Program-made: the position numbers and the translations under genes
Notes under the pieces: generated by a model
Database searches by the model: none
What the model was told of the DNA's origin: nothing
The model's input: only the letters and a program-made list of their open reading frames with translations
NCBI GenBank assembly: GCA_001799285.1
Contig: MGTD01000036.1
Coordinates: 4,863 to 59,417 of the forward strand
DNA: 54,555 nucleotides
Direction: 5' to 3'
From: Deltaproteobacteria bacterium RIFOXYD12_FULL_56_24
GTDB lineage: Bacteria; Desulfobacterota; Desulfobulbia; Desulfobulbales; Desulfurivibrionaceae
Shown: one piece after another, positions 11,990 through 34,520 of the stretch
Layout of the letters: every line of letters starts with the position of its first letter
How positions within the stretch are numbered: the stretch's first letter is position 1

Positions 11990-14900
11990 ATGATTATGGC
12001 CCGTTCCACTGTCCACTACGCTGATAAAGAAACTAACAACATCCTCAAAAAACTGCACAATAAGTTGCGGCCCGCCGGCACGCCGGTGCAGCGGGTAGAA
12101 TACATCATCGAGCTGCTGTTGTTGCGCATCTTCGAGGTCAAGCTGGTGCAAGACCCTGAGTACGAACAGTTGCGTGGTGCGTTTGCCGGTGACAACGAAG
12201 CGCGGCTATTCACTTCATTGTTGAGCCTGCCCAACGACCAAATCCTGACTGCGCTCAACACGCGTTTTTTCCCTTTCTATGCCCATATCCTCAGCGAAGC
12301 GCGCAAAGTCTGGCAAGGCAATCTCTCCACCAAGGTGCAGGATCAACTGATTCTGATCGAGGAGGTTTTCGGCAACTCCAACTTCACCAACAACGTGACC
12401 AGCGGCAACATGGCCGAAATCATCGGGCTGGTCGCTGAACTCGACAGCGAACGGCTACTGAAAACCGACCTGTTGGGCGATGCCATCGAATCGGCACTCT
12501 CGGAAACCGGCGGCACCAAAGATATCGGCCTGCATCGTACACCCGACCACATCCGGCAATTCATGGTCGGTTTGACCGCGCCCACTTTCAAGTCGCGGCT
12601 ATTTGACCCGGCAGTGGGCACCGGCGGCTTCATGTTCGACAGCTTTGAATATGTGCTCGAAGGCGTCTATCGCGAAGGCCATTGGCCCGGCACCAAGGCA
12701 CACCCGGAACTCATTGTATGGTTCAAAAATTGGTTCGACCAGTATCCGACAGAGCTGCCGTCGCATGAAGTAACTACCGATTTTTATCGCTCCGGTGTAG
12801 GTGGTATCGAGTATCTCGGCATGGTGCGCAAAATGGCCGCGATCAATTTCTATGTGCGTGGCATCAACCCTGGCAACATCCAGCAGGGCGACGCGCTGGA
12901 AAAATTCGGCAGCGTTATTTTGCCCAACAGCAAAAGTATTGTACTCGCCAATCCGCCTTTTGGCGCGGAACGGGACAAAGAAGCCTATCCCAATGTTTGG
13001 AGCGAATACCCCACCGAGGGCGAAACCACCATCCTCTTCGTCAAGCTGATGCTGGAAACCTTGGAGCAACACGGGGTGTGTGCCGTCATCGTCTCCGAAG
13101 GATTTTTGACCTGGGATCAAAACAGCGCCCGCTCCCTGCGCCGTGCCTTGCTCGAAGAATGCAACCTGCAAGCCATCATCAGCCTGCCGCAAGGGTTGTT
13201 TGTCAGTAAGGGAGGGCAAGGGCCGAAAACCTCTATCCTGCTATTTGTCAAAGGCCAACCCACCAAGCGCGTCTGGTTTTACAAAGTCACCAATGACGGC
13301 TACACGATGGGCACCAACCGTAAGCCCATCGCCGGTAGCCAATTGGTCGAGGCACTCGACCTGTTTCACACCCATGTGCGGCAAGGCAAAGAACCGCCCG
13401 AGAGCAGGCATTCTTTCTGCATCCCAGCCGAATGGATCAAGATACTCGACCCCCGCATAAAGGATCGCATTCGCGCCGAAACGCGCGCCGATATGACCGC
13501 AAAGGAAACCGACGACAGAGCTAAGCAACTGGAAAAGTGGAATGCCCAGATTGCCGCAAAGAAGCTCACGACCGCCGAGCGCGACCAGCGGCTCGCGCAA
13601 CACGCCGAACTCTGGTTTAGCAAAACCGAAAATGAAATTGCCCGCAAGATCGAGCGGTCACATCTCTATTCTTTCAACTTGCCCAACTACCGCAGCAGCT
13701 TGACCTTGGAGCAGATTAAGGCATGGAAAAGTTTCGCAGCAACGCGCCTGCGCGAGGGCGCTGAAGAAAAAACGTTGGAAGGAAAATACCGCACCATCGC
13801 CGCCGCCCGTACCGAGGAACTGGACGAGATGCTGTCCTCGCTCGATCCGAGACATACGCTGGAACTCGACTGGGCGCGGCAGTTTCTGACCAGCGTGCCA
13901 GCGGAGGAATTCCAGCGGCACCCGCATTTGAATACTTTGCAGGTAGTGATTGCTTCGCAGGCAAAGGCACTACGCATACAACTGAAAGACCTAATTAAAC
14001 CGCGTCAGGAAAAAGTAAAAAAAGACGACTACGATGGTGCATTGCCCATTGTCGAAAAAATCAGCTTTGCCGATGGCCTTCTACATTTCAGGGATGAGCG
14101 CGAAACAGGGATGGACTTGTATAAGGCGTACAAAGGCGACCTCGTTACATCAAAGATCAATTTGCACCAAGGAGCGTTAGCTCTTGCACCCTGCACCCTT
14201 GTTACCTCGACGCATTACTTGCCATACGAAATTAATGTGGGCGAAATTGATCCAGACTATCTGGTTGCAGTGCTACGTTCCACACAGTTTCGTGCGTTGA
14301 TTGATGCGCAGAAGAACAGCGGAATCAAAAATGAACAGGGAGCAGAGTTTCTTGGTGGGTTTGAGATTCCGCTCCCCGCTCTTGAAGAACAGAAGAAAGA
14401 GGTTAGCGAACTGAAAAAATTATCGGCCATGCAATTCCATGCCAACGGTTTTGTTGATGCATGGAGTGTAGATTTGTTCCTGTCTTTCGATGGCGAATCT
14501 ATGTTGTTGGGCGACATGGCCGATGTCGATGCCAAGGTCATCAAAGACCTAAATGTGGTGTCAGATGTCCGGTATGTCGGGGGCGAGCATATTGAATCAG
14601 GAACAGGGCGGCTAGTCGCAACGCAGACAGTCGCAGAGGCCGGAATAATTGGACCATCGTATCCTTTCAGGGCAGGTCAGGTTGTTTACAGCAAGGTGCG
14701 GCCTAATTTGAGGAAGTGTTTTTTTGCTGACTTCGATGGCGTGTGCAGTTCCGATATTTACCCATACACGATCAAATCAGAAAAGATTTTCGCAGAGTAT
14801 TTTGCTATTGTTTTGGCATCGAACTGGTTTGCGGAGCAGACGCTAGAGTTTCAAGAGCGCGCAGGTATGCCGAAGGTGAATCGAGACCAACTTGCGACTA

Positions 14901-15049
14901 TTCGGATCATTGTCCCGAGCATTGAAGATCAATTGAGGTGCGTAAGTAACTACAAGGCAAACCGATTCGTCATTGATGGGTTAGAGGCAAGTGCCAAAGT
15001 TTGCAGACAAAAAGCACTGAATATCATTAGCTTAATCTGGGAGTCCTAA
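11990..15049 (+). CDS. hsdM: Type I methylase fused to specificity subunit (HsdM-HsdS)
   Basis: 1019 residues. Residues 1-500 are an N6-adenine DNA methylase: a HsdM-type N-terminal helical part, SAM motif DPAVGTGGF near 205, and catalytic NPPFG near 320. Residues about 500-690 are a charged helical linker (EKWNAQIAAKKLTTAERD and similar). Residues about 690-1019 have two target-recognition-like segments, each ending in the typical specificity-subunit pattern (GGFEIPLPALEEQKKEV and VNRDQLATIRIIVPS). Normal type I systems use separate M and S genes. Two ATGs (11990 and 11996) are possible; AGGA at 11982 fits the second slightly better. It is followed two bases later by hsdR. Confidence 0.92.
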   Translation: MIMARSTVHYADKETNNILKKLHNKLRPAGTPVQRVEYIIELLLLRIFEVKLVQDPEYEQLRGAFAGDNEARLFTSLLSLPNDQILTALNTRFFPFYAHILSEARKVWQGNLSTKVQDQLILIEEVFGNSNFTNNVTSGNMAEIIGLVAELDSERLLKTDLLGDAIESALSETGGTKDIGLHRTPDHIRQFMVGLTAPTFKSRLFDPAVGTGGFMFDSFEYVLEGVYREGHWPGTKAHPELIVWFKNWFDQYPTELPSHEVTTDFYRSGVGGIEYLGMVRKMAAINFYVRGINPGNIQQGDALEKFGSVILPNSKSIVLANPPFGAERDKEAYPNVWSEYPTEGETTILFVKLMLETLEQHGVCAVIVSEGFLTWDQNSARSLRRALLEECNLQAIISLPQGLFVSKGGQGPKTSILLFVKGQPTKRVWFYKVTNDGYTMGTNRKPIAGSQLVEALDLFHTHVRQGKEPPESRHSFCIPAEWIKILDPRIKDRIRAETRADMTAKETDDRAKQLEKWNAQIAAKKLTTAERDQRLAQHAELWFSKTENEIARKIERSHLYSFNLPNYRSSLTLEQIKAWKSFAATRLREGAEEKTLEGKYRTIAAARTEELDEMLSSLDPRHTLELDWARQFLTSVPAEEFQRHPHLNTLQVVIASQAKALRIQLKDLIKPRQEKVKKDDYDGALPIVEKISFADGLLHFRDERETGMDLYKAYKGDLVTSKINLHQGALALAPCTLVTSTHYLPYEINVGEIDPDYLVAVLRSTQFRALIDAQKNSGIKNEQGAEFLGGFEIPLPALEEQKKEVSELKKLSAMQFHANGFVDAWSVDLFLSFDGESMLLGDMADVDAKVIKDLNVVSDVRYVGGEHIESGTGRLVATQTVAEAGIIGPSYPFRAGQVVYSKVRPNLRKCFFADFDGVCSSDIYPYTIKSEKIFAEYFAIVLASNWFAEQTLEFQERAGMPKVNRDQLATIRIIVPSIEDQLRCVSNYKANRFVIDGLEASAKVCRQKALNIISLIWES

Positions 15050-15051
15050 TC

Positions 15052-17457
15052 ATGCCCAAGCCCACAAAGACCGGAGTGTTCGACAACGAGGCTTCGGCAG
15101 TTGATCTCAAGGTCTATGATGTTCTGAAGTCACTGGGCTGGACTGTTGAAAATAAGGGGCTGCTCTATCAACCGAGCTATGCGCTGACCGAGGAAGAGCA
15201 GAAGGATTTTCCCGGTAGCAAGTCCATCAAGCCGGATTTCGTGTTGCAGGATATGCAGGGGTTTTCTCTGGCGGTGATCGAAAACAAGCTGGACGATCCG
15301 GCGAAGGCGTTGCCCAAGCTGCGACTGAAATATAGCCGCGTGCTGAAACCCCGTTTTCTTTATGCCTGTGCGGCGGATGGTTCTGGTGGGCTGAAGGTGT
15401 TGTTTTTCGACCTCGCATGGCGTGGGGTGGATGCGGCTGATTTTCGTGTGGTCGATAGCTTTATGTCGTTGACGGACATGAAGCTGAAGATTGAGCAGGA
15501 CAAGCTGAAGCGGCAGGAACAGGAAATACGCATCGACACGACGCTGGCTGGCGGCTTTGATCCGGCGGCGGGCAAGGAGCGCGCTTATCAATTGACCTGC
15601 ATCCTCATACTGCTCAATCTTTACCGCGAGGGCAAGATGAAGATGCTGGTACACATGGCGACCGGCTTGGGTAAGACGCGGACGATGGTTGCGCTGGTCA
15701 AGGCGTTGCTTGAACATGCGCTGGCCAGGCGCATCTTGTTCGTGGTGGATAGGCGCACGCTGGCGCGACAGGCAATCAGCAAGGGGTTCCAACTGCTTGC
15801 GCCTACCTACAACAGCCACTGGATTACCTCGGCCAGTTGGCGGGCGCACAAGAACAAGAATATCCATGTGGTGGTGATCGACACGCTGGAACAGCTCTAC
15901 GACAAAATTCCGAGCAACTTCTACGACCTCATCATTGTGGACGAGTGCCACCGCTCAATCACGGTGAACCGCAATCTGGTGTTCGATCATTTTGTTTGCC
16001 CGCGTATCGGCCTGACCGCGACCCCGCGCATTGCTGTTGCGCCGAAGGGCGGCAAGCTCGACGATGAGGATGCCGCCATCAACGATACCTATCGCCTGTT
16101 CGGCTGCGAGACCGGTGAGCCAGATTTTAAGTTTGACCTTGACCGGGCTATCGAAGAAGGCTTTTTAGCACCCTACCGAAAGGAGGAGCACATTACCGCG
16201 CTCACCAAGGAGGCCATGGAAAATGGCGTGCTCTACGACCATTTGCTCGACCCGGAAACCCGCGATCGCATTGAGCTAGGAGCGCAACAAACAATCGAGC
16301 TGGAGAAGCTTAACAAGCGCATCTTGAGCGACGAACAAGCCAACCGCTGGGCGGAGATTCTGCGCAAGGAAACCGAGTACGGCGAAAAAATTATTCTGTT
16401 TGCGGCCAGCCAGGCGCATAGCCTGATGCTGGTGAAAGCGATCAACAAGGCATTCAACGATTCAAGCCAAAGCCCGCGGTACGCCGAAGCAATTATTTCG
16501 GAAAACGAAGACATCAACGAATCGCTCAAGGAGTGGTTTGATCGCCCTTACTCAAATCCTCGCGTGGTGGTGTCGGTGGACATCATGAGTACAGGCGTTG
16601 ATATTCCGTGCGTGCGTTACATCGCTTTTGGTGCGATCACCAAATCGGTAGGAAAGTATTTGCAGATGCTGGGACGTGGCACGCGGCTCGACCCGAAAAC
16701 CGGTAAATTCAGTTTCAAGATTCTCGATTTTGTCGGCCTGTGCAATCGGATGGGCGATAACGGCAAGGGTACGTTGATACCGAACGAAAAGGTGGTTAAA
16801 CCCGGCGCGGGGGGTAATGGTGGTGGTGGGGGCGGCGGCGGTGGAGTTGAGGGGATTCTGGATAACCCTGATCCCGCGAGCCTGATTCAGCGCGTGCAGA
16901 TTACGGAGGAAGGCATCAAGATTATTGACAACATCCCCATTGCCAAGGCACGCGAACTGTTCGAGGAAGGCGTTAAATCAACGATGGACCCGCGTATCGC
17001 CCTGCTGCGGCGCAAGGCATGGGAAGACAAGGATTACCAGCCAACCGAGGAAGAACTCGCGCTCATCAAAGAATGGGCGGCAGCACCCGACGTGATTTTG
17101 TCCGAGGAACAATTGCAGCGGATTTACGAGTATCCGGCCGGATCGGTTTGGGATTTTTTTCTCGCCGTGCTGGGCGTAAAAAAGATACCAACCACGCGCG
17201 AACTTATCGAGGCGGGTTTCGAGAGTTATCTAGGGCTTTACAATTTCACCGACGATCAAGCCAAGGCGCTGCGCAAGATCAAGGATGTATTTGTCGCCAA
17301 CCTTTCGTCGCACGGACGGGTTGATCTCGACACGATTTTTGCCGATCCTATTTATGCTCGGCTGATTGGCGACTTTGAGGATATCAACCGCAAGTTCGAC
17401 GGAAAATTGCGTAAGATAGTGGCGGAAATGCAAGGTTGTTTCAGGACGGCGGCTTGA
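15052..17457 (+). CDS. hsdR: Type I restriction endonuclease, HsdR-like
   Basis: 801 residues. N-terminal nuclease motif: PDFV (Asp62) with AVIENK (Glu77-x-Lys79), a PD-(D/E)xK core. Then come the translocase motifs: Walker A MATGLGKT (202-209), DECH (297-300), LTATP, and a second RecA domain with GRGTR. A run of glycines near residue 590 links to the C-terminal helical part. It cuts unmodified DNA after translocation with the M-S protein. It is at the shorter end for HsdR but looks complete. It starts two bases after the hsdMS stop, so they form one operon. Confidence 0.93.
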   Translation: MPKPTKTGVFDNEASAVDLKVYDVLKSLGWTVENKGLLYQPSYALTEEEQKDFPGSKSIKPDFVLQDMQGFSLAVIENKLDDPAKALPKLRLKYSRVLKPRFLYACAADGSGGLKVLFFDLAWRGVDAADFRVVDSFMSLTDMKLKIEQDKLKRQEQEIRIDTTLAGGFDPAAGKERAYQLTCILILLNLYREGKMKMLVHMATGLGKTRTMVALVKALLEHALARRILFVVDRRTLARQAISKGFQLLAPTYNSHWITSASWRAHKNKNIHVVVIDTLEQLYDKIPSNFYDLIIVDECHRSITVNRNLVFDHFVCPRIGLTATPRIAVAPKGGKLDDEDAAINDTYRLFGCETGEPDFKFDLDRAIEEGFLAPYRKEEHITALTKEAMENGVLYDHLLDPETRDRIELGAQQTIELEKLNKRILSDEQANRWAEILRKETEYGEKIILFAASQAHSLMLVKAINKAFNDSSQSPRYAEAIISENEDINESLKEWFDRPYSNPRVVVSVDIMSTGVDIPCVRYIAFGAITKSVGKYLQMLGRGTRLDPKTGKFSFKILDFVGLCNRMGDNGKGTLIPNEKVVKPGAGGNGGGGGGGGGVEGILDNPDPASLIQRVQITEEGIKIIDNIPIAKARELFEEGVKSTMDPRIALLRRKAWEDKDYQPTEEELALIKEWAAAPDVILSEEQLQRIYEYPAGSVWDFFLAVLGVKKIPTTRELIEAGFESYLGLYNFTDDQAKALRKIKDVFVANLSSHGRVDLDTIFADPIYARLIGDFEDINRKFDGKLRKIVAEMQGCFRTAA

Positions 17458-17667
17458 ACAGGCCGCGGCGCTGTTTCTTATGACAGATAGGCCAAGGACT
17501 TTGCGATATGACTACTCTTCCCGGAGAATTTTGTCAAACAGGACAGGCCGCACTGTGTTGGCTAAGTCCGTTGCCAACCTGATGCATCTTCGCAAAATCC
17601 CACCCTTTTGAGTATTGATTGCTGTTTGGCATTCTGAAGGAAATTAACAATTAGGCAAGGAGCAGAC

Positions 17668-18321
17668 ATGCCAGCCGTCTCAGAAATAATCGTCCGGCGC
17701 TTCCAGAAGCTTGAGGACCAAGCTAGAGCTATTCAGATAATACGTACGGAATCGAGCAACATAGCTGACCACGAGCAGTTTTACTCTTGGGCCATGAGCG
17801 CTCTTTCGGCTATCCAGGACGCATTTGGAAGTGACTCACCACACTATTTGGCTTTCCAAAAGGAGATGAGTACTATTCAGAACAACTACATTGATTCTAA
17901 GCGACTCGCGAGTATTCGCGGAATTTTCTTCGGAGCCAAGAACGACATCGATGGTGGTTATGTGTTCGATCTTCAGCGTTCTATCTCTGGCGAACTATTC
18001 GGAGATTTCGTAGCAGTGGCGAAGGCAGCTCTGGCTGATGGATATCACACTGTCGCGAGTGTTCTAGCGTGCGCCGCACTTGAAGACGTACTCAAACGAT
18101 ACGCAGTTTCGAAAGACCTTCAGGTTGATGGTAAGACGATGGAAGATGTCGTGAACGCTCTCAAGAGCAAGGGACTCGTCTCGGGCGCACAGAAGACGCT
18201 GCTCGCTGCCATGCCAAAAGTCAGAAATGCCGCCATGCATGCTGACTGGGACAAGTTGACGCCGCAGGACGCTGGAAGTGTCATTGGCTACGTCGAGCAA
18301 TTCTTGCTCGTACACTTCTAG
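17668..18321 (+). CDS. HEPN-like / DUF4145-like protein
   Basis: 217 residues, mostly helical, with no signal peptide or membrane segment. The C-terminal half (from GYHTVASVLACAALEDVL) resembles HEPN/DUF4145-type domains, and KVRNAAMHADW supplies an Rx4H motif (Arg186, His191), the catalytic signature of HEPN ribonucleases. A GGAGC ribosome site lies 7 bases before the ATG. It sits 210 bases after hsdR in the defence island; HEPN proteins often accompany restriction systems. A toxin or RNase role is inference. From 18,322 to 18,532 no gene is convincing. Confidence 0.6.
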   Translation: MPAVSEIIVRRFQKLEDQARAIQIIRTESSNIADHEQFYSWAMSALSAIQDAFGSDSPHYLAFQKEMSTIQNNYIDSKRLASIRGIFFGAKNDIDGGYVFDLQRSISGELFGDFVAVAKAALADGYHTVASVLACAALEDVLKRYAVSKDLQVDGKTMEDVVNALKSKGLVSGAQKTLLAAMPKVRNAAMHADWDKLTPQDAGSVIGYVEQFLLVHF

Positions 18322-18532: not shown

Positions 18533-19888
18533 ATGTTGAATAATTCCCAAGACATCCAAGCCCTGCTGACGGGGCCAAAATTTCCGGTCCGGGAGTTTAT
18601 CCGTTCCGGCGCCACCTTCGGCGAGGTCTATGCCATGGCGGCCGGATTTCGTGCTGCCTTTTCCGGCCCGGAATACGAGGGGGTAGCCGTCTGTCTTGCC
18701 GTGGACGACCGGGCTGTCATGGCCGCTGTCCTGCTGGCTGCCATGGCGGGCGGCCCGACCCTGCTTCTGCCCTACGCCTTTTCCGCCCAGGCCCTGGCCC
18801 GGATGCACCAGCTCACCGGCTTTACCACGGCCATTGCCGATGCCGATTGGGCGCTGCCCCCAGGCACCACGATCATCCGCCCGCCGGCAGGAACCCCGGC
18901 TGAGCGTGCACCCTGCGCCTCGATATCGCCGCAAGCGGAACTGCTCAGGATCTTCACCGGCGGCTCAACCGGCACGCCGCAGCTCTGGGCAAAAACAGGG
19001 GACAATCTTTTCGGCGAGGGATTGTCCCTGGCCCGCCACTTTGCCGTAACGGAAAAAGACTGCCTGGTCGCCACCGTGCCCCCCTATCATATCTACGGCC
19101 TGCTGTTCTCCGTTATCCTGCCCCTGGTTTCGGGTGCCTCGGTCGTCATGGCCACCCCCTCTTTCCCCGGCGAGATCGGTGAGGTGATCCAGGAACAGGG
19201 AGCCACGCTTCTTGCCGGCATCCCCCCCCATTACCGGGCCCTGCGGGGGAAAAAGATAGCGGCATCCTCCCTCAGGCTGGCCTTTTCCTCCGCTGGTATG
19301 CTGGACGCGGAAGACAACGAGACCTTCTCCCGCCTGAATAACGTAGGGATTGTCGAGGTGTACGGCTCCACGGAAACTGGCGGCATCGCCACCAGAAACA
19401 GACACCTGGGCGAGACCGCATTCACCGCTTTCCCGGATGTTTCCTGGCAGATCAAAGAAGAGCGCCTCTGCGTGCGTTCCCCCTTTCTCTCCCCCGAACT
19501 GCCCGTGGCCGACGATGGCTTTTTTACCACCGGCGACCGGGTGGCACGAAGCGGGGCAAGCCAATTTATCCTGAAGGGACGGGTGGACGGGGTGACCAAG
19601 GTGGGGGGCAAACGGGTGGATCTGGAAGAGGTTCGCGCCGTCATCAAGAAAGTGCCCAAGGTCAGCGACTGTGTGGTCATGGCCCTGCCCGAATCCGGGG
19701 GGAGGGAGCACCGGATTGTGGCCCTGGTCCAGGGGGCCGAAGTGGATATGAATCTGCTCAGGCAAACCCTGGCCGATTCCCTGGAATTCTACGCCCTGCC
19801 GCGAGTGCTCAAGACGATCAACCGGATTCCGTTGCAAGAAAACGGCAAGTACGACCGGGATGCCATTATCCAATTCCTGGAGACATGA
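18533..19888 (+). CDS. Acyl-AMP ligase (ANL superfamily), aryl-polyene type
   Basis: 451 residues, shorter than most acyl-CoA synthetases (about 550) but usual for aryl-polyene-type ligases. It shows the ATP loop FTGGSTGTP (141-149), YGSTETGG (277-284), TGDR, KVGGKRVDLEEV (356-367) and the C-terminal catalytic lysine in NGKYDR (Lys439). It should activate a free acid as acyl-AMP and pass it to CoA or ACP, supplying the starter unit. It is the first cluster gene after the island and overlaps the next gene by four bases. The substrate cannot be read from sequence. Confidence 0.88.
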   Translation: MLNNSQDIQALLTGPKFPVREFIRSGATFGEVYAMAAGFRAAFSGPEYEGVAVCLAVDDRAVMAAVLLAAMAGGPTLLLPYAFSAQALARMHQLTGFTTAIADADWALPPGTTIIRPPAGTPAERAPCASISPQAELLRIFTGGSTGTPQLWAKTGDNLFGEGLSLARHFAVTEKDCLVATVPPYHIYGLLFSVILPLVSGASVVMATPSFPGEIGEVIQEQGATLLAGIPPHYRALRGKKIAASSLRLAFSSAGMLDAEDNETFSRLNNVGIVEVYGSTETGGIATRNRHLGETAFTAFPDVSWQIKEERLCVRSPFLSPELPVADDGFFTTGDRVARSGASQFILKGRVDGVTKVGGKRVDLEEVRAVIKKVPKVSDCVVMALPESGGREHRIVALVQGAEVDMNLLRQTLADSLEFYALPRVLKTINRIPLQENGKYDRDAIIQFLET

Positions 19889-21582
19889 GCATGCGCAACG
19901 CCTTTGTCAGCGGTTACGAAAACCTGTCGGCCTGGGCCGATCTCCTGGACCGGATCAACGTCTTTCCCGTGGCCGACGGGGACACCGGGGCCAATCTGCG
20001 CATCAGCCTGGCCCCCTTACGTGACGGCACGGCCGAGACAACGCAAACCCTGAACCTGCTGGCCCGCTGCGCCACCGGCAACTCCGGCAATATCGCCGCC
20101 GCCTTTTTTCAGGAATTTTACCAGGCGAAAAGCTTTGCCGAGCTGGCCGAAAAAGCGGCGCTGGGCAGGACCAAGGCCTGGCAGGCCCTGGCCAGACCGC
20201 AATCCGGCACCATGCTCAATGTCTTTGACTGCCTGGCCACAAGCCTGGTTGGCCAAACGGACCCGGTTCTGCTCTATCCCCTGCTCTGCAAGGAGCTGCA
20301 AGAGACGGTCCTTGCTACCTCCCAGCTGCTGCCTGATCTCCGGGAGGCAGGCGTCGTCGATGCCGGAGCCCTTGGCATGTATGTCTTTTTTGAGGGGTTT
20401 TTCCGGCAGCTTGCGGGGCAACAGACCATGTCCGCCCCCATCCCGGAACTTTTTGCCGGCAGGCTTGCGATCAGCGGTGATTTTCAGGCCAGCCCCACCG
20501 GCTGTTTTTGCGTGAATGCCCTCATTCACACCAGCGACAGGCAGGCTGCCGCCGGAGAAGAGCTGGCAAAATTGGGGCAAAGCGTGGTCGTGCTCCCGGC
20601 GGAATCCGGCTTCAAGGTGCATATCCATACGGCGGACCGGCAGCTGTTGCGCACCCAGCTTTCCGCCCTGGGCGAGATCGTCGATTGGTCCGATGAGGCC
20701 ATGGACGCAGGCAGTATTCCCGGCCCTGGGAAAAGGCAGGCCATCCATATCATGACCGATGGGGCCGGTTCCCTGAGCAGGGAGATGGCACAGCGCTACG
20801 GCATCACCCTGCTGGACAGCTATATCCTGGCCCAGGGCCAAAGCAGGCCGGAAAGCCTGCACGCGCCGAGGGAGATCTATGGACTGATGCGGGAGGGCGT
20901 AAAGGTCACCACTGCTCAGGCCTCTATCTTCGAGCGGCATCAGCACTATCAGAGCGTCTGCCAGCAGTTCGGCCGCACCCTCTACCTCTGTGTCGGTTCC
21001 GCCTTTACGGGCAACCATGATACTGCCCGGCGCTGGAAAGAAGAACACGATCCGGACAACCTGCTGGAGGTCGTGGACAGCGGCGCCGCCTCCGGCAGGC
21101 TGGGTCTTGTTGCCCTGCTTGCCGCCCGCTATGCGGAACAAGCCACAGATCCGGAAGAGGTTATCCGCTTTGTGCAAAAGGCCCTGCTCGACTGCGAAGA
21201 GTATGTCTTTATTGACGAGCTGCGCTACCTTGCGGCCGGCGGCAGGATTTCCCGGGCAGGGGGATTTTTCGCTGATCTGCTCCAGATGAAGCCCGTGATC
21301 AGTCCGACCAGCGAAGGGGTGCGCAAGGTGGGCGTTGTCCGCAGCAGGGAGGGCCAGCTCGCTTTTGCCTTGGCGAAGCTGCGGGCAAGACAGTCCACCG
21401 CCCCGGTGATTATGCTCCAGCACACCGACAACGAAGCATGGCTGGTACAAACGGTGCAGCCCCAGGTGCGGGCGTTGCTGCCGGACGCGGAGATCGTGCT
21501 TATGCCCCTCTCCCTGACCTCCGGGGTGCACATGGGGCCCGGCACCTGGTCCCTGGCCCTGGCAGGAAGGGAGGGACGATGA
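19885..21582 (+). CDS. DAK2-DegV fusion (fatty acid kinase FakA-FakB-like)
   Basis: 565 residues. Residues 1-200 are a DAK2 kinase domain with the nucleotide/metal loop INVFPVADGDTGANL (24-38), as in FakA. A middle segment follows. Residues about 290-560 are a DegV domain (IMTDGAGSLS, GVKVTTAQAS, VGSAFTGNHDT, VDSGAASG, LRYLAAGGRISR), which in FakB binds a single fatty acid. In most bacteria FakA and FakB are separate proteins that together make acyl-phosphate. A single-chain version in a lipid cluster suggests that the pathway activates a free acyl chain as acyl-phosphate. It overlaps the ligase (ATGA) and the glycosyltransferase. Confidence 0.88.
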   Translation: MSMRNAFVSGYENLSAWADLLDRINVFPVADGDTGANLRISLAPLRDGTAETTQTLNLLARCATGNSGNIAAAFFQEFYQAKSFAELAEKAALGRTKAWQALARPQSGTMLNVFDCLATSLVGQTDPVLLYPLLCKELQETVLATSQLLPDLREAGVVDAGALGMYVFFEGFFRQLAGQQTMSAPIPELFAGRLAISGDFQASPTGCFCVNALIHTSDRQAAAGEELAKLGQSVVVLPAESGFKVHIHTADRQLLRTQLSALGEIVDWSDEAMDAGSIPGPGKRQAIHIMTDGAGSLSREMAQRYGITLLDSYILAQGQSRPESLHAPREIYGLMREGVKVTTAQASIFERHQHYQSVCQQFGRTLYLCVGSAFTGNHDTARRWKEEHDPDNLLEVVDSGAASGRLGLVALLAARYAEQATDPEEVIRFVQKALLDCEEYVFIDELRYLAAGGRISRAGGFFADLLQMKPVISPTSEGVRKVGVVRSREGQLAFALAKLRARQSTAPVIMLQHTDNEAWLVQTVQPQVRALLPDAEIVLMPLSLTSGVHMGPGTWSLALAGREGR

Positions 21583-22280
21583 AAGCCGCAGTCATTATCC
21601 CGGTTTACAATCACGAGCAACGCATCGGTGAGGTGATTGGCCAGGCCCTGAAGCTGGGCCTGCCCCTCTTGGTGATCGACGACGGCTCAACTGACCGCAC
21701 TCCCGAGATCATCCGCCAGATCCCGGGGATTTCCGTAATCCGCCATCCCGTCAATCTGGGTAAAGGCGCGGCCCTGCTTACCGGTTTTGCCGCTGCCGTG
21801 GAACAGGGCTGCGCTTGGGCAATCACCATCGACGGCGACGGCCAACACCTGCCGGAAGATGCCACCTCCCTGCTGCGGGCGGCGGGGGAAGGCAGGCGGG
21901 CCATCGTGGTGGGCAGGCGGCAGGGAATGAGCGGGGAAAACGTGCCCTGGACCAGCAGGTTCGGCCGCGGCTTTTCCAACTTCTGGGTCTGGGCGGCCGG
22001 TGGGCCGTTCATCTCGGATTCCCAGTCCGGCTTCAGGCTCTACCCTCTGCCCGAGACCCTGCATCTGGGGGTCAAGGCAACCCGCTACCAGTTCGAGGTG
22101 GAGGTGCTGGTCAGGGCAAAGCAAAAGGGGATCAACACCATTGAAGCGCCGGTCCGGGTTGTCTATCAGGCCAAGGGAGAGCGGGTCAGCCACTTTCGGC
22201 CCTGGCTTGATTTCCGGCGCAACTCCGCCACCTTCAGCAGATTGATCTGGCAACGAATCTTTGGAGCCTTCCGGTCATGA
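21579..22280 (+). CDS. Family 2 glycosyltransferase (GT-A)
   Basis: 233 residues from the ATG at 21579, which overlaps the previous stop and follows GGGAGGG. An upstream extension is possible but would overlap the fusion gene by about 140 bases. It has AVIIPVYNHEQRIGEV, VIDDGSTDRT and DGDGQH, the nucleotide-sugar and metal-binding motifs of GT2 enzymes such as dolichyl-phosphate mannosyltransferase-like proteins. There is no long membrane segment. In aryl-polyene clusters a GT2 and an LpxL-type acyltransferase occur together or fused; here they are adjacent with a four-base overlap, so they probably build the glycolipid anchor of the product. Confidence 0.88.
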   Translation: MKAAVIIPVYNHEQRIGEVIGQALKLGLPLLVIDDGSTDRTPEIIRQIPGISVIRHPVNLGKGAALLTGFAAAVEQGCAWAITIDGDGQHLPEDATSLLRAAGEGRRAIVVGRRQGMSGENVPWTSRFGRGFSNFWVWAAGGPFISDSQSGFRLYPLPETLHLGVKATRYQFEVEVLVRAKQKGINTIEAPVRVVYQAKGERVSHFRPWLDFRRNSATFSRLIWQRIFGAFRS

Positions 22281-23146
22281 ACGGCTTTTGGTACAAGTTT
22301 TTTCTCCGGATGGCCAGGCTCTGCGGCCCCTGGCTGCTGGTCGTGACCTCGCGGATCATCGCTACGGGCTTTTTCCTTTTTTCCGGCCGGGTTTCGGAAA
22401 GCCGCCGGTTCTATGGGGCGCTTTTCCCGGAACGGGGAGGCCTCTATCACCTGTGGTGCGCCTTCAGGCAGTATCAGAATTTCACCACCATCCATCTTGA
22501 TCGCTTCCTTGCAGAGAGAAACGACACCACCATCTTCACCTCCCAGGGCTGGGAAAAACTTGAGGGAGTCATCGGCAGGCAGGGCGGGATTTTGCTTATG
22601 TCCCACCTGGGCAACTGGGAGATGGCGGCCAGATTGCTGCGTCGGCAGAAAGAAGACCTGCGGCTTCTGCTTTATATGGGGGTGAAGGAAAAAGAGGGGG
22701 TGGAGCGGCTGCAAAAGGAGGATCTGCGCCGGGCCGGGGTAACGATTATCGGGGTCGATCAGGAGAGGGGCTCACCCTTTGCCGCGGTGGAGGGCATCCG
22801 TTTTTTGCAGTCAGGCGGCATAGTCTCCCTGACCGGGGATATTGTTTGGCGCAGCGATCAGCGCAAGGTCCGGGTCAGCTTTCTCGGCCATGAAGCCTGG
22901 CTCCCCGAGGCGCCCTATATCTTTGCCCTGCTCTCCGGGGCGCCGCTGTTTGTCTTTTTCGCCTTCCGCACCGGGAAAAACAGCTACCGCTTCACCTTAT
23001 CTGACCCCATTGCCATCAGGCCGCACGCCAGGGCAGATCGGGATCGGGCCATTGGGGAAGCGGCCCAGCAGTATGCGGATCTGCTGGAAAAAAGGCTCCG
23101 GGAACATCCCTTTGAATGGTATCATTTTGAACGCTTTCTCCAATAA
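22277..23146 (+). CDS. LpxL/HtrB-type lysophospholipid acyltransferase
   Basis: 289 residues with a short N-terminal membrane stretch (PWLLVVTSRIIATGFFLF) and the HX4E catalytic motif in MSHLGNWE (His110, Glu115). The rest follows the lipid A late acyltransferase pattern (VDQERGS, GGIVSLTGD, AEAPY-like EAPYIFALLSGAPL, and a C-terminal PFEWYHFERF). It should transfer an acyl group, from an ACP or CoA, to a sugar or lipid at the inner membrane. It overlaps the GT2 gene by four bases. Confidence 0.88.
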   Translation: MNGFWYKFFLRMARLCGPWLLVVTSRIIATGFFLFSGRVSESRRFYGALFPERGGLYHLWCAFRQYQNFTTIHLDRFLAERNDTTIFTSQGWEKLEGVIGRQGGILLMSHLGNWEMAARLLRRQKEDLRLLLYMGVKEKEGVERLQKEDLRRAGVTIIGVDQERGSPFAAVEGIRFLQSGGIVSLTGDIVWRSDQRKVRVSFLGHEAWLPEAPYIFALLSGAPLFVFFAFRTGKNSYRFTLSDPIAIRPHARADRDRAIGEAAQQYADLLEKRLREHPFEWYHFERFLQ

Positions 23147-23171: not shown

Positions 23172-24716
23172 ATGGATCAGGCAAGGGTTAAGCATTATGG
23201 CTCAAAAGAAGATTTTAAAAAAATCTATTTGATAGCCCCCAGGCATCCAGACAATTTCTGGTCCATGCAAGGAACAGCAGATATTCTGGGGGCTAAAACA
23301 TTGATGCCGAATTCAGCCCTGGCTACCTTGATGGCCTTGACCCCGAGAGGCGTCAGCATTCAGTATGCCCTCGCGGATGAGAATGTAACTGAAATAGATT
23401 TTGATTTTATTTGCGATCTGGTGGTCATAACCGGGGGCACCCTGCATGCACACAGAATCCATGCGCTCTGCGAAGAATTTAGAAAAAGAGGGCGGCAGAT
23501 AGCTCTGGGGGGGACATACGCCTCCATTGAATATGACCGCTGCGACGGACTGGCGGATTATCATTTTATCGGAGAAGCTGAATACACCTGGCCGCTTTTC
23601 CTCAAGCAATGGAGAGAGGGTAAAACTGAAAAAATTTATAAGCAGGAACAGTATGTTGACATGAAAGACAGTCCTCCCCCGGACTGGTCTTTAATCCGGG
23701 CAGGGAACTATGTTAATCTCAGTATTCAGACCAGCAGGGGCTGCCCGAATCAGTGCGATTTTTGCGATGTTATCCAGTATGTGGGGAGAAGATACCGCAC
23801 AAAATCCATTGCCCAAATTTTGCAGGAACTGCAGAACGCTCTGGACCTTGGCGCCCGAACGGTTTTCTTTTCCGATGATAATTTCCTTGGCAACAAAGGA
23901 TTCACCCAGGAACTGCTCGCCAGCGTAATCGCCTGGAACGTCAAACAGTCCAGGCCCTTGTCATTCTCAACCCAGATCACCGTCCAGGTTGCTGATGATG
24001 ATCAGTTGCTGAAAATGTTCGCGGATGCGCGATTTTCCGTCCTGTTTCTCGGGGTAGAAACGGTGCGGCGGGAGAGCCTGGCCGAGGTACACAAGAGCCA
24101 GAATCTAGAAAAAGACCTCTTTGAGAGAATCAGAAAAATATCCCGTTTTGGCATCGTCCCCTTTATTGGTCTCATAGTCGGTTTTGATAACGATGATGAA
24201 GATGTCTTTGAGGAATTGGAGCAGTTCCTGATTGCCACTGACAGCCCGATTGCGGGCATCAGCCTGTTAAACGCCCCTCGACACACTACGCTCTATGAAA
24301 GGCTGAAGAAAGAAGGGCGACTCACGGAAAACAATTTCTCCGGGGAATGGCAATTACACACGAATATCATTCCCAAGCAGATGAGCCTTGCGAGACTCAG
24401 TTTCTTATACTGGGGTCTTTTCCGGAAAATTTATCAACCGGAGTTTTTTGAGGAGAGACTGCTTAACTGGTTGAAAAACGTTGAATATTTTAGCGAAATT
24501 TATGTGAACAAGAAGGCTGATCCCAAGCAGCTGCGGTTTGGGATCAGGATTTTCAGCCATTTCATTTTCAACGAGAACCGGCAGGTTCGAGCCCTTTTCT
24601 TTAGAATGCTGAAAAAGACCTGGAAAATAAACCCCAAGCTTATGAGGCGTTTTTTTACCGTTATCACCCAGTACAGCCATTTTTATCGCTTTGTGAACAG
24701 GGATCGGACAGAATAG
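23172..24716 (+). CDS. B12-binding-type radical SAM enzyme with DUF4070-like tail
   Basis: 514 residues. A cobalamin-binding-like N-terminus (LVVITGGT, ALGGTYASIEYD, FIGEAE) precedes CPNQCDFC (Cys191/195/198). The approximately 150-residue tail after the barrel (from about 370, WQLHTNIIPKQMSL onward) is of the type named DUF4070. It resembles the HpnJ/HpnP-like group, but no close function can be claimed. AGGAC lies about 9 bases before the ATG. Base composition is visibly richer in A and T than its neighbours, which may mean a separate origin. Confidence 0.9.
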   Translation: MDQARVKHYGSKEDFKKIYLIAPRHPDNFWSMQGTADILGAKTLMPNSALATLMALTPRGVSIQYALADENVTEIDFDFICDLVVITGGTLHAHRIHALCEEFRKRGRQIALGGTYASIEYDRCDGLADYHFIGEAEYTWPLFLKQWREGKTEKIYKQEQYVDMKDSPPPDWSLIRAGNYVNLSIQTSRGCPNQCDFCDVIQYVGRRYRTKSIAQILQELQNALDLGARTVFFSDDNFLGNKGFTQELLASVIAWNVKQSRPLSFSTQITVQVADDDQLLKMFADARFSVLFLGVETVRRESLAEVHKSQNLEKDLFERIRKISRFGIVPFIGLIVGFDNDDEDVFEELEQFLIATDSPIAGISLLNAPRHTTLYERLKKEGRLTENNFSGEWQLHTNIIPKQMSLARLSFLYWGLFRKIYQPEFFEERLLNWLKNVEYFSEIYVNKKADPKQLRFGIRIFSHFIFNENRQVRALFFRMLKKTWKINPKLMRRFFTVITQYSHFYRFVNRDRTE

Positions 24717-24922: not shown

Positions 24923-25180
24923 ATGAATAGAGATGTTTTACAAAAGAAAATCCTGGCCATCCTGATCGAGGATTTTGAGTTTGAACAGCCGGGTCTCAAC
25001 GATAACCTCCGGGACGATCATGGCTTTGACAGTATCGACGCCATTGAACTGCTGGGGAAAATCGAGTTGATCCTCGGCTATTCCCTCACCTGGGAGGAAA
25101 AGGAAAAGGCCATGGGGATCAGGACCATCAACGATATTCTCGACTACATTGAAGTCATCGCCGCATCCCGTAAACCCTAA
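24923..25180 (+). CDS. Acyl carrier protein (ACP 3)
   Basis: 85 residues with HGFDSIDAIELL as the pantetheine site. It lies 20 bases upstream of a ketosynthase gene, so the two probably work as a pair. The 206 bases before it are AT-rich and could hold a promoter, but I do not see a clear match. A 69-codon open frame there overlaps this start and is not supported. Confidence 0.92.
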   Translation: MNRDVLQKKILAILIEDFEFEQPGLNDNLRDDHGFDSIDAIELLGKIELILGYSLTWEEKEKAMGIRTINDILDYIEVIAASRKP

Positions 25181-25199
25181 TGCCCTTCAGGCAAATCCC

Positions 25200-26453
25200 A
25201 TGAAGCGACGCGTTGTCATTACCGCCTGCTCGGCCATCACCCCCATCGGTTATGGGAAAGACGATATCGTCGCTAGTCTCCGGCAGGGCAGATCCGGGGT
25301 CAAGCCCCTGCGGGATGACGGGCTGCTGAACAGGCATATTCACTCCCGGGTCTTCGGCACCGTGGATTATGAAATAGATTACGGCTTCAAGCGGCTGTAC
25401 CGCAAGACCATGGGGCCGGTGGCCTATTATGCCTGCCAGGTGGCCAAGGATGTGCTGGAGAGCTCCGGCCTGGATCAGGAATTTATCACCTCCGGCCGTC
25501 TGGGCGTGGCCTTCGGCTCCACCCATGGCAGCCCCACGGTCCAGCGCGAGATCTACAAAACATTTTTTCAGGAGCTGGAGACGAAATTCGCCTCCATCGG
25601 GGCGGTGGATTATCTCCGTTCCATGGTCCATACCACGGCGGTGAACATCACCCGGATGTTCGGCATTACCGGCCGGGTTATTGCCTCGTCAACTGCCTGC
25701 ACCACCAGCAGCCAGGCCATCGGTTTCGGCTATGAAATGGTCAAGTACGGGATGCAGGATGCCATGCTCTGCGGCGGCGCCGATGAGTACGACACCACCA
25801 CCGTGGCGGTCTTTGATAACCTGCTGGCCTGCTCCACCGCCTATAATGAGACGCCGCATTGCACGCCGAGGCCCTTTGACAGCGGCCGCGACGGCCTGGT
25901 CGTGGGCGAGGGCGGCGGCGCGGTGCTCCTGGAGGAATACGAGTCGGCAAAACGGCGCGGGGCAACGATTCTCGGCGAAGTCATTGGTTTTGCCTGCAAC
26001 AACAACGGTGGAGACCTCATCCTCCCCAACCTGGAAGGGATCACCACCACCCTGCGCCTGGCCCTCGCCGATGCCGGGATCACCCCCGCGGAGGTGGATT
26101 TTGTCAGCGCCCATGCCACGGCGACCAAGATGGGCGATGTGATCGAATCCCAGGCCATTGCCGCGGTGTACGGGGACGGTCCTTTTGTCAGCGGCCTGAA
26201 GAGCTACATGGGCCATACCATGGGAACCTGCGGGGTGATTGAGACGATCCTGACTCTCTACATGATGGAGCAGGGATTTGTCGCACCCACCCTGAACCTT
26301 GAAAACATCGACGAACGCTGCCGCATGTTGCGGCATGTCCAGGAGATAACCCCGGCAACCATAGGAATCGGTGCCATCCAGAACTTTGCCTTCGGCGGGG
26401 TCAACACCTGTTTGTTGATTAAATCAGGTGAAAGGATGAAGGCTGAAGATTGA
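25200..26453 (+). CDS. Beta-ketoacyl-ACP synthase (KAS I/II-like)
   Basis: 417 residues from ATG 25200 (MKRRVVITACSAITPIG). Catalytic triad: STACTTSS with Cys167, AHATAT with His305 (HATAT instead of HGTGT), KSYMGHTMG with Lys334 and His339. The full thiolase fold is present with an FAFGGVN loop near the end. It should perform decarboxylative condensation on ACP 3. The last residues (about MKAED) are encoded inside a hairpin repeat, so the tail may have been altered by that insertion. Confidence 0.9.
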   Translation: MKRRVVITACSAITPIGYGKDDIVASLRQGRSGVKPLRDDGLLNRHIHSRVFGTVDYEIDYGFKRLYRKTMGPVAYYACQVAKDVLESSGLDQEFITSGRLGVAFGSTHGSPTVQREIYKTFFQELETKFASIGAVDYLRSMVHTTAVNITRMFGITGRVIASSTACTTSSQAIGFGYEMVKYGMQDAMLCGGADEYDTTTVAVFDNLLACSTAYNETPHCTPRPFDSGRDGLVVGEGGGAVLLEEYESAKRRGATILGEVIGFACNNNGGDLILPNLEGITTTLRLALADAGITPAEVDFVSAHATATKMGDVIESQAIAAVYGDGPFVSGLKSYMGHTMGTCGVIETILTLYMMEQGFVAPTLNLENIDERCRMLRHVQEITPATIGIGAIQNFAFGGVNTCLLIKSGERMKAED

Positions 26454-26526: not shown

Positions 26527-27279
26527 ATGAAAGTTGATCGGTTATTAGATTTTTTGGTCACCATCCTCTGCTGGGTCTGGTTCATTCTTGGTTTTTTTCT
26601 GTTCTTTTCCTGGTTGTATCTTGGTGCAGCCATGTTTGTCAAAAACAAGGAAGCCGCCTTCCAGCGGTTGAACAGCCATTTTTATCAGGTTTTCTTTTGC
26701 CTGCTGCGCGTGACGGCTCCCAGGCACAAATGGGTTATTAATCAGGAGGTGGCGTCGATCAGGTCGGCGGTGATCGTCTGTAATCATCTTTCCTATCTGG
26801 ATCCATTGCTGTTCATTGCCCTGTTTGAACGTCAACGAACCCTGGTCAAGACGCGTTTTTTCTCCATGCCGGTCTTCGGCTGGATTATCAAAAAATCAGG
26901 CTATTTCCCGGCCAGCGGCGAGGGACAGTTCACCAGAATGATGCTCAAGCAGATGCAGACAATGGAGAGTTTTTTCCAGAAGGGCGGGAATCTCTTTATC
27001 TTTCCCGAAGGCACCCGGAGCCGTGACGGGGGAGTCGGCAACCTGAACAGAGGAGCCCTGAAAATTGCCCGGCTGTGCAAAGCGCCTATTTATGTCTTGC
27101 AACTGACACATACGAACAAGCTGTTTCCCCCGGGCAGGTTTCTTTTTCAAACCAGGATAAAAAACAGGATCACTCTGCGGATCCTTGACCGTATCGAGCC
27201 CGACTACCAGCATCAGGTCCCGTCTGCAGCCGTGCTGGAACAGCGGGTGATGGCAGCCTACGCAGGACAACAGCCATGA
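26527..27279 (+). CDS. PlsC-type 1-acylglycerol-phosphate acyltransferase
   Basis: 250 residues. An N-terminal membrane segment (about 10-37) precedes NHLSYLD (His87, Asp92: the HX4D motif) and FPEGTRS (159-165). These are the two hallmark motifs of PlsC. It should place an acyl chain on a glycerophosphate or a related acceptor at the inner membrane. It is flanked by the ketosynthase and a radical SAM gene and overlaps the latter by four bases, so it probably handles the cluster's product rather than general phospholipids. Confidence 0.9.
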   Translation: MKVDRLLDFLVTILCWVWFILGFFLFFSWLYLGAAMFVKNKEAAFQRLNSHFYQVFFCLLRVTAPRHKWVINQEVASIRSAVIVCNHLSYLDPLLFIALFERQRTLVKTRFFSMPVFGWIIKKSGYFPASGEGQFTRMMLKQMQTMESFFQKGGNLFIFPEGTRSRDGGVGNLNRGALKIARLCKAPIYVLQLTHTNKLFPPGRFLFQTRIKNRITLRILDRIEPDYQHQVPSAAVLEQRVMAAYAGQQP

Positions 27280-28766
27280 AGGTTCTTCTCATCTCCATGC
27301 CCGATGTAGTGCCGCTCATCATCCATGAGGCAGCATTTCACATGCCCAATCACGGCATTGCCTCAGTTGGCGGCAATATCGATGCAGAACATGAAGTCTA
27401 TCTGGTTGATCTGATCCGCAAGCGCCGTTCCATCAAGAAATATCTGACCAAGGTGATCGGCAAGATCAAGCCCGACCTGGTAGGCCTTTCGGCCATGACC
27501 TGGCAGTATGATACCTGCATCAAGATCTCCCACCTGATCAAGGAACTTAGCCCCGAGGTCAAGATTGTTATCGGTGGCTACCATGCCACCCTGATGCATG
27601 AAGAGATAGCCTCCGCCAAAGAGGCAAGGTGGATTGATTTCATGATCCGGGGAGAAGGCGAAGAGGCCTGCCGCCGTTTGGTGAATGGTCTTGACGGCCG
27701 TGATGATCTGGCGGCGATTCCTTCTCTTTCCCATAAAAAAGACGGGGTGTTCGTCCATAATCCACGGGGTGAAAACCTTGATCTGAGTACCCTCAAGCTC
27801 CCTGTCCGGGATAAACGGAGGCTGACCTGGGGCTATCATATTATGTACTCCAAGATCGAACTCGTGGAGACATCCAGGGGATGCACCCGTGCCTGTAACT
27901 TTTGTTCCATGAGGCATATGTACGGCCGCACCTTTCGGACCTATCCTGTAATCCGCGTCCTGGAAGACATCGATGACATATACTATAAGCGTAAGACCAG
28001 GTGGATATTCATCGTCGACGACAATATGGTCCTGAATCCTTCCCGGGTCGTGGAACTCTGTGACGCGATTATTTCCAGAAAGTATAAGGGGCTCAACTTT
28101 GTTGTTCAGGCCGATTGCGTGTCCATGGCAACTAATGAAGGGATGGTCGCCAAAATGGCGGCGGCGGGTTTCCGCTCGGTTTTTCTCGGCATCGAAAACG
28201 GCTCGGCCAAAAACCTGAACTGTGCCGGCAAAAGCGATATTCTTGCCTACGTAAAGAAGGCCATTGAAAACTGCCACCGATACGGGATAATGGTGGTCGG
28301 CGGCTTGATCTTCGGCTTTGCGGAAGATGACGAGGAATCGATTCGAGAAAACTACGAATTTTTTAATGATATCGGCGCGGATGCCGCCTACTGCCAGATC
28401 CTGACCCCCTATCCCAAGACCGCCATGCGGGATCAGCTTCTGGAGCAAGGGCTGGTGAGCAACAGCAGCGATTATAAAAAATATAACGGCCTGTGGGCCA
28501 ATGTCCGCACCAGACACCTTGACTCTGCCCAGCTCCAGTATCAGTTCTGGTACCAGCGCCAAGTGGTGCTGGGGTGGTGGAATCCTCCCGCCCCCGCCCG
28601 AAGTCAGGGGCGGATATGGACCTCCATCTGGCGTTTTCTGTTCAAGCCCTTTTTGAAGATCCACTATCGAATGATCATGAAAAAATATGGCTGGGAAGGC
28701 CGTTACCAAAAGGAAGTTGCGCGGTGGGAAAGAATGAATCGTTTTACAGACCTCGAACCTTACTAA
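27276..28766 (+). CDS. B12-binding-type radical SAM enzyme
   Basis: 496 residues. The cobalamin-binding-like N-terminus (MKVLLISMPD, LVGLSAM, IVIGGYHATLMHEE, GEGEEA) leads into CTRACNFC (Cys203/207/210). A C-terminal helical part of about 110 residues follows, with basic residues near the end (MKKYGWEG). It overlaps the PlsC-type gene (ATGA). Together with the other four members in the cluster it forms a diverged family; they are not simple duplicates, since their sequences differ throughout. Confidence 0.9.
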   Translation: MKVLLISMPDVVPLIIHEAAFHMPNHGIASVGGNIDAEHEVYLVDLIRKRRSIKKYLTKVIGKIKPDLVGLSAMTWQYDTCIKISHLIKELSPEVKIVIGGYHATLMHEEIASAKEARWIDFMIRGEGEEACRRLVNGLDGRDDLAAIPSLSHKKDGVFVHNPRGENLDLSTLKLPVRDKRRLTWGYHIMYSKIELVETSRGCTRACNFCSMRHMYGRTFRTYPVIRVLEDIDDIYYKRKTRWIFIVDDNMVLNPSRVVELCDAIISRKYKGLNFVVQADCVSMATNEGMVAKMAAAGFRSVFLGIENGSAKNLNCAGKSDILAYVKKAIENCHRYGIMVVGGLIFGFAEDDEESIRENYEFFNDIGADAAYCQILTPYPKTAMRDQLLEQGLVSNSSDYKKYNGLWANVRTRHLDSAQLQYQFWYQRQVVLGWWNPPAPARSQGRIWTSIWRFLFKPFLKIHYRMIMKKYGWEGRYQKEVARWERMNRFTDLEPY

Positions 28767-28927: not shown

Positions 28928-28942
28928 GAAAAATTAAAAAAC

Positions 28943-34468: not shown

Positions 34469-34520
34469 GTCTGCCAGGTGCCTTGCCTTGTTTGAAAAAT
34501 CAGGGGGATTCATCTTATTC

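Follow-up and report, generated by a model that had tools for sequence, protein, structure and literature searches.

Fatty acid kinase (Fak) normally consists of two proteins, the kinase FakA and the fatty acid binder FakB, a DegV protein. The part of PMC9136124 available to us gives Asn32, Asp38, Asp40, Thr41, Asn82, Asp185, Cys240, His282 and His284 as the two-magnesium, nucleotide and catalytic residues of FakA, and reports that FakA_NL of Staphylococcus aureus, from which the FakB-binding C domain has been removed, is still an active Fak with a higher Michaelis constant (KM) for FakB1. In FakB1, according to the available part of PMC8892158, Thr62, Ser95 and His270 form the carboxylate network, Arg173 is needed for phosphorylation, Arg205 serves FakA docking and the membrane, and Ala158 is a tunnel residue. 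Two kinds of biosynthetic cluster also resemble the locus described here. The first makes aryl polyenes, whose anchor molecule in Escherichia coli was still unsolved when PMC8253772 was written, the lipid of Xenorhabdus doucetiae, as the available part of that paper notes, having been solved. The second is the ladderane type, whose radical S-adenosylmethionine (SAM) set was described by Rattray et al. in Kuenenia and Desulfotalea psychrophila (PMC2649909, available in part). We analysed a window from Deltaproteobacteria bacterium RIFOXYD12_FULL_56_24, a bacterium of the sulfate-reducer type (contig MGTD01000036.1; by window we mean the whole stretch of 54,555 nucleotides), in which one gene encodes a DAK2 kinase domain and a DegV domain in a single chain, hereafter the fusion. 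The striking part of the results is a separate clade of such fusions bound to one radical-SAM-rich kind of cluster that resembles both aryl polyene and ladderane clusters. As the best explanation we propose, with moderate confidence and from sequence analysis, that the fusion is a dedicated single-chain Fak-type carboxylate kinase, which would give the acyl-phosphate of an acid of the cluster for anchor assembly.

The fusion gene is a single open reading frame (ORF; 19885-21582, plus strand) with an ATG start, encoding 565 amino acids in the order DAK2, FakA middle domain, DegV/FakB; on Pfam and NCBIfam matches, an AlphaFold2 model and conservation, its product is a putative acyl-phosphate synthase. 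The DAK2 domain covers residues 28-172 (19966-20400, E 4.2e-15), the middle domain FakA-like_M residues 208-274 (20506-20706, E 1.8e-8) and the DegV domain residues 287-559 (20743-21561, E 2.2e-40), and all three matches exceed the curated Pfam cut-offs. The DegV family scores were 139.2 bits for PF02645 (cut-off 27) and 149 for TIGR00762 (cut-off 99.7). The docking domain FakA-like_C (PF13684) had no match at E 0.001 or better in the fusion protein, which has DegV there instead. The earlier note had placed DAK2 and DegV in one protein between an AMP ligase and a glycosyltransferase, and this arrangement was confirmed: the upstream AMP-binding acyl/aryl-acid ligase (18533-19888, plus strand, in an ApeH-like slot) and the downstream family-2 glycosyltransferase (GT2; 21579-22280, plus strand, start as read by the analyst), both assigned by Pfam and NCBIfam, each share a 4-bp ATGA overlap with the fusion gene. 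A third ATGA overlap joins GT2 to a gene for an LpxL-like lipid A acyltransferase family protein (22277-23146, plus strand, Pfam), so that the four genes look translationally coupled. Full-length homologues were 41-90% identical to the fusion protein, and the ratio of nonsynonymous to synonymous substitution rates (dN/dS) of the gene was 0.18-0.26 (NG86, against four relatives), which together argue that the ORF is not a chance one.

The AlphaFold2 model, built from 43 sequences, had a predicted local distance difference test (pLDDT) of 88.7 and a predicted template modelling score (pTM) of 0.90. Comparison of its residues 1-182 with FakA_N of S. aureus (7rm7) gave Z 23.1 and a root-mean-square deviation (rmsd) of 2.2 Å over 180 aligned residues. 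We counted residues in 99 distinct fusion proteins of the 109 collected, two truncated sequences and eight repeats being left out. Alignment to FakA showed that N25, D31, D33, T34 and D159, equivalent to Asn32, Asp38, Asp40, Thr41 and Asp185, are present in all 99 homologues and N66, equivalent to Asn82, in 98, so that the two-magnesium DAK2 site is retained; C209, H246 and H248 of the middle domain, equivalent to Cys240, His282 and His284 of FakA, are also found in 99 of 99. The metal ligands that the earlier note had proposed to check are thus in place. This constraint on the residues, together with the low dN/dS, makes it likely that the fusion protein is a functional kinase of the Fak kind. 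Since FakA_NL is active without the C domain, and since that domain is the one that binds FakB, exchanging it for FakB itself would be chemically coherent.

Residues 283-565 of the model matched the lipid-binding DegV protein 1pzx (Z 31.9, rmsd 2.4 Å, 281 residues aligned) and FakB1 itself (5uto; Z 26.9, rmsd 2.9 Å, 275 residues aligned). The FakB1 numbering was transferred through the printed alignment to 1pzx and phmmer ranges rather than by a residue-by-residue alignment, and the equivalences that follow are therefore putative. Three of the positions were kept, namely Arg173 (R454 in 99 of 99 homologues), Thr62 (T343, with threonine in 97 of 99 and serine in 2 of 99) and His270 (H549 in all 98 homologues without a gap there). 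Two others were replaced throughout, the carboxylate contact Ser95 by Gly371 and the tunnel residue Ala158 by Glu439, each in 99 of 99. The pocket, which the earlier note had proposed to check, thus differs from that of an ordinary FakB. Gly404 (99 of 99) and Trp555 (98 of 98) are also invariant, and none of the four residues Gly371, Gly404, Glu439 and Trp555 was present in the 10 other DegV domains compared, six from standalone proteins, of which one lacks part of its beginning, and four from other one-chain proteins; in the conservation table, the standalone sequences came from four of five sources, L176 having given none. The Arg205 position varied among the 99 homologues (R 62, H 22, K 13, S 2), as expected if docking takes place in cis. 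The alteration of the acid-binding half suggests a substrate unlike that of an ordinary FakB.

In the genome of the window, which is 95% complete, we found one DegV match and one DAK2 match, both within the fusion gene, and each of the seven named relatives searched had exactly one DegV match. A DegV match was found in 35 of 390 genomes of the phylum, 30 within the fusion and five standalone. These counts bear on whether the protein is a FakA-like protein with a DegV-like docking module that needs a separate FakB, or a lipid carrier devoid of kinase activity. The available part of PMC9136124 describes FakA as ending in two FakB-like subdomains that dock FakB, and that of PMC8892158 notes that FakB proteins also exchange lipids with membranes, both in keeping with this idea. 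However, neither the genome of the window nor the seven relatives searched have another DegV match, which counts against an ordinary FakA in need of a separate FakB. The failure of PF13684 beside a DegV match of 2.2e-40, the retention of the Arg173, His270 and Thr62 positions and the full constraint on the kinase residues also speak against a docking module or a carrier, and we consider either very improbable. The claim of a FakA-like kinase and a FakB-like binder in one chain stands on its domain matches, its intact metal ligands and core carboxylate residues, and the lack of other DegV or DAK2 matches in the genome.

An ordinary fatty acid kinase in a single chain would recycle or scavenge common fatty acids for PlsY and PlsX or for the acyl chains of an anchor lipid, and the position in the cluster would then reflect a need for acyl supply. 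PlsX and PlsY have one match each in the genome, outside the neighbourhood of the fusion, the DegV half best matches lipid- and fatty-acid-binding DegV structures, and the fusion is the only Fak-like gene of its genome, all of which would suit such a role. We nevertheless regard it as unlikely, because the four invariant residues are absent from the six standalone DegV and four other one-chain proteins, because the gene is linked to one type of cluster, and because three fusion-less genomes of the family of the window (G002, G004 and G006) had no DegV match, which indicates that this family can live without Fak.

The tie to the cluster was examined in related genomes. The fusion gene occurs in 5 of 27 genomes of the family, that of the window included. 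Of 395 genomes sampled evenly across the phylum, 33 had a match, 30 of them to the fusion (three of these, G109, G143 and G197, being split or cut at contig ends) and three to the kinase half alone. As a marker of the cluster type we used the B12-binding/radical SAM gene at 8872-10137 (plus strand), in which Radical_SAM itself scores under the Pfam cut-off. In the same sample, the fusion was found in 26 of 26 genomes with a close form of this marker (at least 67% identity) as against 0 of 24 genomes whose best copy was 59-64% identical; of the remaining four fusion genomes, three had a copy at 47-52% and one (G035) no match at threshold. The earlier note had advised looking for the same fusion near other radical-SAM-rich clusters, and it does recur there. 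All 28 fusion loci read (L034-L061) contain other cluster genes, and at least one was present in 78 of the 80 loci of a larger set; these 80, many of which lie on short contigs, were kept out of at least 418 relatives. Eight of the 80 are the same places as ones in the set of 28, so that the neighbour counts of the two sets overlap. The 80 loci held GT2 in 71, the LpxL-like gene in 70, the 8872 radical SAM gene in 53 and the ligase in 50, while 13 sister loci from the 24 genomes with a 59-64% marker held GT2 in 12, the LpxL-like gene in 11 and neither the fusion nor an AMP ligase homologue in any. These results indicate that the fusion is a feature of a single lineage of such clusters, a related lineage doing without it. 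That the fusion serves this cluster is well supported by the linkage. Its carriers among the matches listed include Desulfofustis, Desulfogranum, Desulfobulbus, Desulfatitalea, two Chromatiaceae and two Spirochaetes bins. The sister clusters (L159-L171) are themselves radical-SAM-rich and aryl-polyene-like; L165 also contains an MMPL gene, and L159 and L160 each contain a phenylacetate-CoA-ligase-like gene.

We then considered what the immediate neighbours say about the substrate. In 68 loci with enough sequence, the stretch of up to 600 bp upstream on the same strand held an AMP ligase in 44, a 4HBT-type thioesterase in 19 and an aromatic ammonia-lyase in four; 64 of them had at least one of the three, three had two and four had none. 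A second set of 50 loci (49 distinct places, L039 and L131 being one) overlaps partly with the first, and here the upstream slot held a thioesterase in 20 and a lyase in 13; the ORF caller lost the fusion in two of these 50, and tblastn recovered it in all. Ligase, thioesterase and lyase all have a free acid as substrate or product, in line with a kinase that acts on a released acid. The proposal of the earlier note, that phosphorylation of a free fatty acid or of a product acid might run in parallel with the AMP route, agrees with these neighbours. The next gene downstream, in 67 loci with enough sequence, was GT2 in 59, LpxL-like in three and neither in five. GT2 and the LpxL-like protein together would correspond to ApeJ, proposed in the available part of PMC8253772 for anchoring the polyene acid.

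The lyase neighbours raise the alternative of an aryl-acid kinase, which would convert a small aromatic acid (cinnamate, coumarate or 4-hydroxybenzoate) to an acyl-phosphate for starter loading, beside or instead of the AMP ligase. In all 13 loci that have a lyase (assigned by Pfam in one locus and in the others by 53-82% identity to that one), it is encoded no more than about 530 bp upstream of the fusion, on the same strand. In other loci the slot is taken by the AMP ligase, for which TIGR02372, a 4-coumarate ligase model, was the best NCBIfam match, below its cut-off. The change of two pocket positions to glycine and the gain of Trp555 and Glu439 also speak for this alternative. Yet the long-acyl DegV fold is retained, the genome of the window has no ammonia-lyase, and an AMP ligase homologue is also present in 7 of the 13 lyase loci (within the stretch fetched). 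Moreover, in 10 of the 13 the 600 bp upstream of the fusion also include a thioesterase, which in L051 stands between lyase and fusion, and this suggests a released chain rather than a starter. There is perhaps a small chance that the aryl-acid reading is correct.

In the dedicated carboxylate kinase that we favour, the DegV domain would bind a lipophilic carboxylic acid that the cluster makes or uses, and the DAK2 and middle domains, either in cis or from the other chain of a dimer, would pass the gamma-phosphate of ATP to it to give the acyl-phosphate. The most likely use would be as an activated acyl donor, directly or via PlsX as acyl carrier protein (ACP) thioester (acyl-ACP), for the glycolipid anchor of the pigment, which the next two genes, GT2 and the LpxL-like gene, would assemble. 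The sequence itself shows the fusion, the full set of catalytic residues, the tie to the cluster, the lack of another DegV or DAK2 match in the genome and the altered pocket positions; from these we infer the kinase activity, the acceptor and the identity of the acid, which would be a released acid of the polyene or aryl kind, not bulk fatty acid. A more specific version, which we put forward only tentatively and think somewhat doubtful, is that the binder half has been re-tooled through Gly371, Gly404, Glu439 and Trp555 for the released polyene or aryl acid, and that the pigment lipid is built via an acyl-phosphate: a thioesterase would free the acid or the ligase handle it, the fusion would re-activate it, and GT2 or the LpxL-like protein would consume it.

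Several results weigh against a dedicated kinase. The glycine at the Ser95 position and the glutamate at the tunnel alanine mean that fatty acid binding is not assured. The fusion protein missed the NCBIfam models of FakA (NF038248, 79.1 bits, cut-off 975), YloV (TIGR03599, 137.1 bits, cut-off 396.1) and the FakB1 equivalog (NF038249, 58.1 bits, cut-off 350), all by a wide interval, which makes it Fak-like yet outside the curated Fak equivalogs. The sole PlsY match is on another contig, so that the cluster has no known acyl-phosphate-using acyltransferase. The ammonia-lyase of other loci, as stated, was not found in the genome of the window. The upstream slot in the window is held by an AMP ligase that could activate the acid, and the kinase could therefore be redundant there. 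A thioesterase homologue is present in 10 of the 13 sister loci, which have no kinase, and so does not require one; most of the same loci hold GT2 and LpxL-like genes, and the chemistry of these two can thus run without the fusion.

The remainder of the window contains an extended set of related genes. Downstream on the plus strand are a radical SAM gene with DUF4070 (23172-24716, Pfam), an ORF of 85 amino acids that resembles an ACP (24923-25180, assigned by eye, a recurrent neighbour of the fusion in relatives), a ketosynthase ORF (25149-26453, Pfam, true start probably near 25200), a PlsC-like acyltransferase (26527-27279, Pfam), and genes for a B12-binding radical SAM protein (27276-28766) and a radical SAM/SPASM protein (28910-29980), the last two by Pfam and NCBIfam. 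The minus strand then carries a StlD/DarB-family ketosynthase (30147-31304, above the NF005293 cut-off), a B12-binding radical SAM protein (31351-32664, profile matches) and a phytoene-desaturase-like FAD protein (33002-34555, below NCBIfam cut-offs). Upstream of the fusion, profile matches identified a ketoreductase (6743-7480), a LolA-like protein (7477-8094) and a hypothetical protein with a sub-threshold DUF3261 match (8091-8768) on the plus strand (6743-8768), and, on the minus strand (2105-5613), a B12 radical SAM protein (2105-3451) that passes the TIGR04072 'lipid biosynthesis' model with 363.8 bits against a cut-off of 360, and a double ketosynthase (3448-5613). The same contig upstream of the window has two ketosynthases and a dehydratase (ORFs, by eye) and a 4HBT_2 thioesterase (Pfam). 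An aryl polyene set, namely ligase, ketosynthases, ketoreductase, glycosyltransferase/acyltransferase and LolA-like protein by profiles and ACP by eye, is thus in one locus, and the cluster probably makes an unusual polyene lipid.

Some further observations concern the cluster itself. At 11990-18321 it contains HsdM-like (1019 amino acids) and HsdR-like type I restriction genes, recognised by eye, and a DUF4145 gene; the distance between the cluster genes on either side of these is about 40 bases in L036, about 12 in L037 and 0.9-1.6 kb in L034, L035 and L059. The minus-strand ketosynthase at 30147-31304 is of the StlD/DarB kind, named for dialkylresorcinols, inside a ladderane/aryl-polyene-type cluster, and a homologue stands near the fusion in 11 of the 80 loci. 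ABC transporter genes and an adjoining ORF (36988-37995) occupy 34876-37995 on the minus strand, and homologues of that ORF recur with an XRE-like ORF in fusion and sister clusters, both names having been given by eye. Radical SAM homologues in G273, G253 and G093 (loci L044, L047 and L060) showed in-frame stops, which were considered as possible recoding and proved to be ordinary C-terminal gene ends.

The earlier note had presented the one-chain enzyme as a dedicated version of a system of two proteins; the single chain was confirmed, but it is not unique to this cluster, and the DAK2-DegV one-chain architecture is not new. In a tblastn search of plasmid records, Listeria, Enterococcus raffinosus and Acetoanaerobium gave long matches with 25-26% identity, and a 398-genome sample of the phylum of Allochromatium palmeri gave, besides the genome of Allochromatium itself, one further match (G577, 28%). 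In Listeria innocua, Acetoanaerobium and G577 all three domains of the fusion were recognised by Pfam, E. raffinosus being assigned by motif only. These four proteins, of L. innocua, Acetoanaerobium noterae, E. raffinosus and G577, have the domain order of the fusion but only 25-28% identity to it, fall on a separate branch in both trees and have none of the four pocket residues. The Listeria neighbourhood has no comparable cluster, and the others were covered only by one flanking ORF in Acetoanaerobium. Trees of either half placed the cluster-linked fusions in one group (support 100/100), apart from the distant one-chain proteins and from two-protein Fak; in the DegV tree the stem of the fusions is long, and for the second tree the program warns that long branches meet. 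Directly downstream of the Firmicute one-chain genes (L203, 3504-6007; L204, 3423-6006) is a DUF1295-type gene, annotated in Listeria and recognised by eye in Acetoanaerobium, possibly as a functional pair.

A Fak-type enzyme inside a biosynthetic cluster of deltaproteobacterial-type bacteria, as the sole DegV and DAK2 match of its genome, would, if the more specific version above is right, mean that specialised metabolism captured a fatty acid kinase and that these clusters activate their acid by a logic other than the AMP/thioester route known from aryl polyenes. A dedicated maker of acyl-phosphate beside glycosyltransferase and acyltransferase genes would make one route of attachment directly testable, and the joined kinase-binder chain could help to capture the catalytic complex of Fak. 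Among the matches listed in the open PMC literature, the titles and openings of abstracts describe no fusion of DAK2 and DegV in a cluster of this kind. The main text of PMC2649909, on ladderane clusters, does not contain the words 'kinase', 'DegV' or 'DAK', and the available part of PMC4790861 does not contain 'kinase' or 'DegV', the anammox genomes themselves not having been searched.

Comparison of the fusion with FakA/FakB (S. aureus; S. suis complex 7w7h) showed that the DAK2 domain, the Cys-His-His middle domain, the DegV binder and the catalytic residues are the same, whereas the fusion is one chain, has the binder in place of the docking C-domain, has Gly at the Ser95 position, Glu at the Ala158 position and a relaxed Arg205 position, and occurs in Desulfobacterota-type bacteria within a biosynthetic cluster. 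Comparison with the E. coli ApeA-R cluster (available part of PMC8253772) showed that AMP ligase, glycosyltransferase with LpxL-like protein, PlsC-like protein, ketosynthases, ketoreductase, thioesterase, LolA-like protein and ACP are common to both, with an ApeP-like dehydratase in a relative; the ApeA-R gene table in that part contains no kinase, and the cluster of the window adds several radical SAM genes and a phytoene-desaturase-like gene. With the ladderane-type clusters of anammox bacteria and D. psychrophila, as described in the available part of PMC2649909, it shares the radical SAM set, the phytoene-desaturase-like gene, the glycosyltransferase and the ketosynthases. Judged by its predicted genes, the cluster that carries the fusion is an aryl polyene gene set crossed with a ladderane-type radical SAM set.

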